Origin: Desulfobulbaceae bacterium
Lineage (GTDB): Bacteria > Desulfobacterota > Desulfobulbia > Desulfobulbales > Desulfocapsaceae
Assembly (NCBI GenBank): GCA_011390165.1
Contig: JAABSV010000012.1
Location: 1 to 64,000 of the forward strand
Direction of reading: 5' to 3'
Length of the DNA: 64,000 bases
The notes beneath the pieces are model-generated. The model made no database searches. It saw only the letters and a program-made list of their open reading frames with translations, and had not been told where the DNA came from. Numbering within the stretch: the first letter of the stretch is position 1; each line of letters begins with the position of its first letter. Shown here piece by piece: positions 53,577-54,935 of this stretch. The translations under genes were made by a program, and so were the position numbers.

Positions 53577-54134
53577 ATGGACAAGAAAATACTGGTTCCC
53601 CTGGCTGAAGGCTTTGAAACCATTGAGGCGTTGAGTGTAGTTGACGTTTTTCGTCGGGCCGGCGCCGAGGTGGTGGTTGCTGCGGTAGGCGATTCCCTGC
53701 AGGTAACCTCTTCGCACCGGGTACCGGTGATAGCCGACATTCTGCTACAGGACTGCGCCGAGGAAAATTTTGCCCTCATTGTCCTCGCCGGGGGGATACC
53801 CGGAGCCGAAAACCTGAAGAACTCCACTCTTCTCGCCGAAATGCTGGCCAGACAGAACCAGGCTGGTCGAATGTTCGGAGCGATATGCGCCGCACCGGCC
53901 GTTGTCCTTGAGCAGCAGGGGCTGCTTGCCGGCCGCGAGGCCACCTGCCACCCGGCCTTTGTCGATCGCCTGCAGACAGGGAAGAGACTGGACCAGGATG
54001 TGGTGACGGCCGGCAACTGCGTTACCGGCAGAGGTGCCGGGGCCTCCATCGATTTTGCCATGACCCTTCTTGGCCTCCTCTTTGGTGAGGAGAAACGGGC
54101 CCAGGTCGCCAAGGGCATGGCTTTACCGGATTGA
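53577..54134 (+). CDS. DJ-1/PfpI-family protein (YajL-like)
   Basis: A 185-residue flavodoxin-like protein of the DJ-1 superfamily. It has the conserved glutamate in LAEGFETIEA, LIVLAGGIPGAENL, and the nucleophilic cysteine in FGAICAAPAVVL (about Cys103). Relatives are protein chaperones, glyoxalases or deglycases; the sequence is closest to the YajL/ThiJ group. Followed by an A/T-rich inverted repeat. No obvious operon partner. Confidence 0.9.
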   Translation: MDKKILVPLAEGFETIEALSVVDVFRRAGAEVVVAAVGDSLQVTSSHRVPVIADILLQDCAEENFALIVLAGGIPGAENLKNSTLLAEMLARQNQAGRMFGAICAAPAVVLEQQGLLAGREATCHPAFVDRLQTGKRLDQDVVTAGNCVTGRGAGASIDFAMTLLGLLFGEEKRAQVAKGMALPD

Positions 54135-54237
54135 GTCGGGCCGGGGGCATCGTCACCCCTTTGGCGGCTACATTTTCTCCCTTCTACTGTGGCCGTTGTC
54201 GAGGGAGTGTAAGGAGTAATTCGAGAAGAAACTTTAG

Positions 54238-54378
54238 GCCACCTTGAAAAATGGTATTTCCGCCCAACCTCTGCGTTGAACGAAACAATTTGTCCTCGGA
54301 ATATCAACTATATGCCTGCGGCAAATTGTTTTCTTTCGCCTTGATTTTGAACGGAAATTCGAATTTTTCAAGGCAGCC
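54238..54378. repeat. A/T-rich long imperfect inverted repeat
   Basis: The outer arms GGCCACCTTGAAAAATGGTA.. (from 54237) and ..GAATTTTTCAAGGCAGCC (to 54378) pair over ~25 positions with few mismatches, and share ATTTCCG/CGGAAAT. Inner arms GAAACAATTTG and CAAATTGTTTTC also pair. The whole 141-base stretch could fold into one long hairpin. It contains no gene and is distinctly richer in A/T than its surroundings; a miniature mobile element or a structured RNA is possible. Confidence 0.65.
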
Positions 54379-54422
54379 TTTAACGATACAGATAAATCCC
54401 GGTGTCGGAAAGGCAAATATTT

Positions 54423-54935
54423 TTACCCCGGTGGCATGGCAAGAACTGAGCAGAGAAGGCGATAGGTAAATCCCCAGAGGTAGTAGTCCTCCATGGGAAA
54501 TGTCGGATAAAGCCGTCCAGGGACCATCTCCACCTGCAGGTGGCGCTCCTGGTCAAGGAAGTGGCGGGCCATCAGCCAGTGGCCGCTGCGGATTTCCCTG
54601 GGATTAAGAGAAAGGGGCGGCCGTTCCGCCAGCGTAAAGAGAAATGGCTGGACCCACAAGGGCCGTGGTGACTCGCGACCGGCTGGCTGCGGCACCAGGC
54701 TCTGTTCGAGCTGGTGGTGGCTGAGGGCAATTCCGGTCTCTTCAGCAGTTTCCCGGAGGCAGGTGGCCAGCAGGTCTCGGTCGAAGGGATCTTTTCTTCC
54801 CCCCGGAAAGGAAAAATGCCCCGACCAGGGGTCATTGGGGTGGGCGGCCCGCCGCAGAACAAGAACACTCTCTTCCGGGATGGTGCTGCGGATAATGGCC
54901 ACGGCGGCGGCGACTTCCGAAGTGAAAGAGGGCAT
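54423..54935 (-). CDS. Nudix hydrolase, CoA pyrophosphatase-like (NudL type)
   Basis: A 170-residue Nudix hydrolase. The Nudix box starts FSFPGGRKDPFD and continues CLRETAEETGI, with Asp where the first conserved Glu of the box is usual; this is normal for the CoA-pyrophosphatase subfamily (FPGGKxDPxDxD). Members cleave coenzyme A or other nucleoside diphosphate derivatives. The ATG at 54935 gives the normal length; upstream to 55124 the frame is open but runs through a 12-base tandem repeat and looks non-coding. No clear ribosome binding site, so the start is tentative. Confidence 0.85.
   Translation of the reverse strand: MPSFTSEVAAAVAIIRSTIPEESVLVLRRAAHPNDPWSGHFSFPGGRKDPFDRDLLATCLRETAEETGIALSHHQLEQSLVPQPAGRESPRPLWVQPFLFTLAERPPLSLNPREIRSGHWLMARHFLDQERHLQVEMVPGRLYPTFPMEDYYLWGFTYRLLCSVLAMPPG

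Follow-up and report, generated by a model that had tools for sequence, protein, structure and literature searches.

In a 64,000-nucleotide stretch of DNA from a Desulfobulbaceae bacterium (the window), an A/T-rich inverted repeat lies between two convergent genes. What is this repeat, and what put it there? The initial annotation, which was made from the letters alone, offered two answers: a miniature inverted-repeat element (MITE) or a structured RNA.

An A/T-rich hairpin between direct repeats

The element is near-palindromic, A/T-rich, and non-coding. It occupies 54237-54378 of the window (+ strand; 142 bp; GGCCACC...GGCAGCC). The A/T-rich inverted repeat had thus been recognized correctly, but its length had been given as 141 bases, and there is one more base at the left. 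The element is flanked by 4-bp direct repeats, TTTA, at 54233-54236 and 54379-54382 (neither is assigned a strand). We identified these as target-site duplications by comparing flanks and from the statistics of the family (see below). The left terminal inverted repeat, at 54237-54252 (+ strand), is GGCCACCTTGAAAAAT, and the right one, at 54363-54378 (- strand), is GGCTGCCTTGAAAAAT; read along the + strand, the element ends in the near-inverse ATTTTTCAAGGCAGCC. We will call these type A ends. In between is an imperfect-hairpin core (54253-54362, + strand; model R1) that is common to other genomes. The element follows a DJ-1 gene, as had been reported: a DJ-1/PfpI-family gene is upstream (53577-54134, + strand), and a convergent gene with a Nudix domain is downstream (54423-54935, - strand).

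The outer arms of the element (54236-54252 and 54363-54379; 17 nt) are 88% complementary. As a single strand, the segment folds into one long imperfect hairpin that covers nearly all of it, with a free energy of -45.4 kcal/mol for the + strand (z = -5.46) and -54.7 kcal/mol for the - strand (z = -6.28). On either strand, 0 of 200 dinucleotide shuffles folded as well, which bears out the claim that the arms can fold almost the entire segment into one hairpin. The base composition is also unlike that of the surroundings, as claimed: the G+C content is 0.43 for the element and 0.606 for the window, and about 1% of the 142-bp segments within the window sequence are as A/T-rich. Two ORFs cross the element. 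Neither of them matches any Pfam family, and we ruled out a coding function for this reason. MITEs are short (under ~500 bp), non-coding, and have terminal inverted repeats, and the element has all of these features.

Many copies with 4-bp target-site duplications

The element is not a single-copy sequence, which would have counted against the initial interpretation. We found at least 49 full copies (54 matches in all) in 41 stretches of the source genome (829 kb). The copy search of the source genome identified at least 41 distinct places, one of which is truncated at a contig end; 40 of the 71 candidates were scored in this search, and four weak additional hits were to the opposite strand of places that had already been counted. 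As in other MITEs, the copies are near-identical and are dispersed at unrelated sites. For instance, the copy at C39:37189 and the window copy have the same sequence throughout, while the former has other flanks and the duplication TATA instead of TTTA. Given this identity, the movement is recent.

The target-site duplications have a fixed length, which is another feature of MITEs. The ends were readable in 42 source-genome copies. In 25 of these, the 4-bp duplication is exact, and 39 match at 3 or more of the 4 bases. When we paired the flanks of different copies as a control (500 trials), the mean number of exact duplications was 3.06 and the maximum was 10. For copies from other genomes, 28 of 49 have exact 4-bp duplications and 40 of 49 match at 3 or more bases (control: mean 2.26, maximum 8). 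These counts exclude copies that are less than 20 bp from the end of the locus or that have more than 2 mismatches per end. The target looks like C-TNNA-G, with TNNA being duplicated. The initial annotation had proposed a check for duplications at both ends, and they are present both in the family as a whole and, as TTTA on each side, at the window copy.

Two arrangements of type A ends stand apart. Close to the end of contig C39 (L003 1500-1787), two copies lie head to tail with 4 bp between them. Also, C13:40998-41033 (L179 1999-2034) contains a 36-bp hairpin that comprises two type A ends and the 6 bases between them, without a core.

IS5-family insertion sequences have matching ends

For its movement, a MITE depends on an insertion sequence that has the same kind of ends and acts in trans. 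Insertion sequences of the IS5 family from relatives have type A ends. One of these, L184 from the relative G018, is 1302 bp long, is flanked by TATA/TATA, and has the ends GGGAGCCTTGAATAAT and GGGTTCCTTGAAAAAT. Its transposase (P0001, 343 aa) scores 276.5 bits against the IS5 model from NCBIfam (the cut-off is 140). L242 (1332 bp, TAAT/TAAT) and L243 (1314 bp, TAAA/TAAA) are similar, so that three of the six complete type A insertion sequences have an exact 4-bp duplication; we did not see one in L246, L258, or L266. Matches to P0001 are found in 17 of 57 genomes, and G019 carries 19 near full-length ones. The IS5-family elements of relatives are thus autonomous partners with matching ends, and via L184, L242, and L243, which share both the ends and the 4-bp duplication, the element probably belongs with the IS5-dependent MITEs. 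We also considered PF13701 (IS1380-type) transposases as the partner. These have matches in the relatives, but not within matched ends and a duplication, so we rejected them.

In the source genome, whose assembly is 91% complete, we found no matches to PF01609, PF13701, or P0001. The source of the transposase was therefore lost, was missed by the assembly, is foreign, or is of another kind. The many copies, the 4-bp duplications, and the autonomous insertion sequences of relatives, whose ends match, all support the first of the two original suggestions, and the window copy is very probably an IS5-type MITE. We propose that an IS5-family transposase, which is not found in the source assembly, acted in trans by recognizing these ends and so brought the element here.

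Location of the copies and effect on the host

To describe the gene context, we used a simple gene finder that was trained on the source genome. None of the 49 full copies are inside predicted genes (an insertion that truncated a gene would score as intergenic in this count), as compared to 86-90% of target-like sites. At least two of the 49 overlap the end of a gene. For 46 copies with both neighbors, 21 are in tandem gaps, 15 in divergent gaps, and 10 in convergent gaps. The excess in convergent gaps is mild: these gaps contain 10/46 copies, as compared to 9-14% of the intergenic sites that resemble targets (p = 0.006 or p = 0.087, depending on the null). The orientation of the 21 copies in tandem gaps is unbiased (13 vs. 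8, p = 0.38).

Source-genome copies deviate from their consensus by 2.6-3.4% at the ends and by 6-10% in core regions. As in any MITE, conservation is higher at the ends than in the core, although our full-length filter favors intact ends. Core positions that are constant across the phylum vary as often as other positions do in the source-genome copies (rho = 0.04, p = 0.68). Individual copies look neutral to the host.

A GAPDH-like gene on contig C18 has a copy (L163 3349-3489) at its 3' end, and the TAG stop codon of this gene is completed by the first base of the copy. A second, worn copy on C18 adjoins the end of the next gene, which is PGK-like. (From the ORFs of L163, we take its genes to be GAPDH-, PGK-, and TIM-like.) L163 was at one point a candidate for the autonomous element of the source genome, and it was rejected; it actually contains separate copies around these genes.

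The core is found across the phylum

Our model of the core has 109 positions and leaves out the ends. With strict filters, it matches 63 of 297 genomes and 52 of 199 genera of the phylum, including the source genome. The element has relatives across the order, and in a set of 57 genomes it is found in 37, which represent 25 of 36 genera (again including the source genome). Among the matches listed (80 of 115 stretches), the named carriers include Desulfobulbus, Desulfogranum, Desulfocapsa, and Desulfofustis, and we take the phylum to be theirs. The element is mostly 139-145 bp long across these genomes. Because most of the foreign loci were found via the core, the constancy of the core relative to the ends partly reflects how the elements were selected.

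The element did not match any of 72,556 plasmid records or 50,697 phage records, and two strict core patterns had no match in viral contigs. A looser core pattern hit nine viral contigs, of which eight match only at the central 23-30 positions. The whole core is present in L416 (2875-3017), a contig from a viral collection, with worn ends that resemble type F (see below). L416 is presumably phage-like, from our reading of one ORF, and is a possible vehicle between hosts. We rejected a plasmid or phage origin for the element, as there was no match in the plasmid or phage records and just this one viral-collection contig has the whole core.

Different ends on the same core

Besides type A (GGCCACCTTGAAAAAT), the core is found with ends of type B (GAGCCTCTTGCAAAAT), C (TGAGTCTGTTGATTAAT), D (GAGACCTTTGCAAAAC), E (GAGGCTGTCCGAGAA), F (AGTGTCCATCCAGAAAT), and G (AGTGCCTGAACGAAAAC). 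We allowed up to 3 substitutions when assigning types, and types A, B, and D are similar enough to blur. From 296 matches to the model, we typed 212 distinct complete elements. The two ends are of the same type in 202 of these: 100 elements of type A (48 from the source genome), 47 of type F, 18 of type B, 14 of type C, 9 each of types D and E, 4 of type G, and 1 of type I. The 10 elements with discordant ends are mostly damaged.

Two to four end types are found together in 7 of 13 foreign genomes or contigs (which we grouped by hand). For instance, Desulfobulbus rhabdoformis DSM 8777 has types A and F, and Desulfogranum marinum DSM 2058 has types C and F. Elements with different ends can have very similar cores: L051 (type C) and L292 (type F) are identical at 102 of 109 core positions, and L065 (type A) and L146 (type B) at 103 of 110.

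We compared the ends of 157 typed elements, three of which are from the source genome. Across 131 cross-type pairs whose cores are at least 90% identical, the ends share 53% of their letters, as compared to 87% for same-type pairs (n = 245) and 26% for shuffled ends; the contrast between same-type and cross-type pairs is partly circular because the types are defined by their ends. Compared to the core, the ends have diverged much more, and alike on both sides, yet they are not wholly dissimilar. Since 44-53% of letters are in common across types, which is above the 26% for shuffled ends, the end types may descend from a common ancestor. Cores of different types have mean identities of 0.61-0.88. 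A tree that we built from 101 cores shows both grouping and mixing of the types, and types A and F each appear in several places.

Transposases for other end types

The partner of type F is L401, a 1702-bp insertion sequence that is flanked by AGCT/AGCT. It comes from Desulfogranum marinum (G349, to which L100 belongs), and this genome contains one type F and one type C core element as well. The L401 transposase (465 aa) scores 433.4 bits against the ISNCY model (the cut-off is 325). It also has a match to the IS5 model that is under the cut-off (3.8e-9), as does P0001 to the ISNCY model (4.4e-15), and a BLASTP comparison of the two transposases gives just 23 bits (E = 0.012). Judging from these comparisons of sequences, the transposases for type A (IS5) and type F (ISNCY) are from different, distantly related families.

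A worn element, L400, is the partner of type G. It has an ATTT duplication and an ISNCY-like ORF (286.7 bits versus the cut-off of 325), and we did not see a type G core in the genome that it is from. For type B, L202 has perfect ends but lacks a 4-bp duplication, and its transposase gene is fragmented and bears a weak similarity to P0001 (E = 6e-4). We thus found clean partners just for types A and F, and the remaining types lack a complete partner in the loci that we examined.

DNA palindrome or RNA structure

In an alignment of 43 elements, 94.8% of cells keep the pairing of the hairpin, a share that falls sharply upon sliding or shuffling. At 24 of 39 pairs, there are changes on both sides; by cells, there are 154 double changes and 15 one-sided changes. 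For core pairs in 164 elements from other genomes, we found 26 G-T and 70 A-C combinations; for the 48 source-genome copies, we found 49 and 20, respectively. Within the same 164 foreign elements, column conservation is 0.86 for the paired core, 0.81 for the unpaired core, and 0.67 for the ends. Since the elements were found by their core, the sole hint that this sequence is needed comes from the persistent difference between the two unpaired sides, and such a need would most simply be in mobility. We read the element as a DNA palindrome, in which one arm perhaps serves as the template for repair of the other, and not as a selected RNA.

Could the element nevertheless be a structured non-coding RNA or an RNA regulatory element, such as a two-way terminator between convergent genes, that was duplicated and is kept for a host function? 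The strong folds of both strands, the conserved pairing with double changes at most pairs, and the location of the copies (none inside predicted genes and a mild excess in convergent gaps) would fit this explanation. But the target-site duplications and terminal repeats speak against it, and the copies in tandem gaps have no preferred orientation. Nor do the source-genome copies avoid changes at the core positions that are conserved across the phylum. The counts of G-T and A-C favor no consistent strand, and one-sided changes, which must be G-U in an RNA, are far rarer than double changes. Also, no Rfam family came near its gathering score (the best match was 23 bits versus a gathering score of 80). 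We rejected an RNA gene on the basis of the Rfam scores, the lack of a consistent preference for G-U over A-C, and the unbiased orientation of the 21 copies in tandem gaps. The structured RNA, which was the other original suggestion, thus fares poorly, and we consider it improbable. A REP/REPIN-like element that is moved by a RAYT (a Y1 transposase) would also be palindromic, intergenic, and present in many copies. But our element has 4-bp target duplications and DDE-type partner elements, and in place of the GTAG or CGTC tags of REPs (named in the title of PMC3733652), its ends have GGCC/GGCT. This is very improbable.

How the ends might have changed

The best overall explanation is a MITE whose core recurs elsewhere with other ends, and we are confident in this account. 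Considered separately, the exchange of ends on a retained core is probable; our confidence is limited by the end types having about half of their bases in common and by the distant kinship of the two transposase families. The alternative is a single MITE family, old or recently spread, in which the end types diverged stepwise along with their distantly related transposases. The core would then look constant because of how the elements were discovered, or because they spread recently, and would have no special role. This would explain why the end types have more letters in common than expected by chance and why the IS5 and ISNCY models weakly match each other's transposases. It would also accommodate the many cores that are not so close (mean identities between types of 0.61-0.88) and the presence of one core on a phage-like contig (L416). 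It does not easily explain the 131 cross-type pairs in which 90% or more of the core is identical while the ends have just 53% of letters in common and are altered alike on both sides, or the presence of several types within one genome. We view stepwise divergence as a serious but less probable alternative to the exchange of ends.

If ends were exchanged, then the core may be a mobile module of DNA whose ends change in concert, so that it could be moved by either IS5 or ISNCY transposases. The core might be kept as an imperfect hairpin because this aids mobility, for instance by bending or folding the 140-bp DNA so that the ends meet. That the core has a role in mobility is a tentative idea, and we lean somewhat against it. 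More speculatively, a selfish hairpin of ~109 bp could be the true unit of inheritance across the phylum. It would re-equip itself with new ends when a local insertion sequence replaces one end and hairpin-templated copying (quasi-palindrome correction) carries the new end to the other side. The core would thereby be able to change from one family of transposases to another (IS5, ISNCY, and others), and selection for mobility would keep the imperfect hairpin. We think that this full scenario is unlikely to be correct.

MITEs are usually viewed as the passive leftovers of one insertion sequence. A core that recurs with matched ends for transposases of different families would instead be a parasite of several parasites, and it would help explain how one element spreads through a phylum. 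Also, cultured strains with two or more end types would make it possible to test how a MITE gains new ends.

Comparison to known elements

The accessible text of PMC10969869 describes bacterial MITEs as decayed transposons. Like these, our element is short and non-coding and has terminal inverted repeats and target duplications; unlike these, its interior recurs across genomes with different ends. IS5-family insertion sequences (NCBIfam NF033581) share the type A terminal repeats and, in three of six complete ones, the 4-bp duplications, but they contain a transposase gene (1302-1334 bp in total), which the element lacks. Geobacter uraniireducens, which we take to be a bacterium of a broadly related kind, contains a MITE named Chunjie. 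Chunjie is 235 bp long instead of 142 bp and, like our element, is present in dozens of copies (accessible text of PMC10969869); we likened the two by description only. REPINs and REPs (the subject of PMC3116915 and PMC3733652) are dispersed palindromes as well, while our element has target duplications and DDE-type partner insertion sequences.

In a limited search of the literature, which included the accessible part of a paper on Geobacter metallireducens (PMC2700814), we found no description that was recognizable as this element, nor of a constant core with changing ends. As a MITE, the element is ordinary. What is unusual is that one core recurs with several sets of ends, two of which match transposases of different families, and the cause of this is what we infer here.

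The DJ-1/Nudix locus in congeners

We looked for an empty insertion site in congeners of the source organism, where a Nudix gene is kept nearby at 10 of 11 DJ-1 loci. The window element was not found at these loci, with a sole match of 24 bp, in L279. When the two flanks of the window element are joined, they align better than 30 shuffles do in 6 of the 9 loci tested (of the 11). The gap between DJ-1 and Nudix in L279 (congener G003) contains a different core element with ends like type E, at 2058-2200, directly after the stop codon of DJ-1. Another of these loci, L275, has a 125-aa ORF between DJ-1 and Nudix. From a faint resemblance in sequence, positions 54135-54236 of the window may retain the worn end of a ~125-aa gene of this kind.
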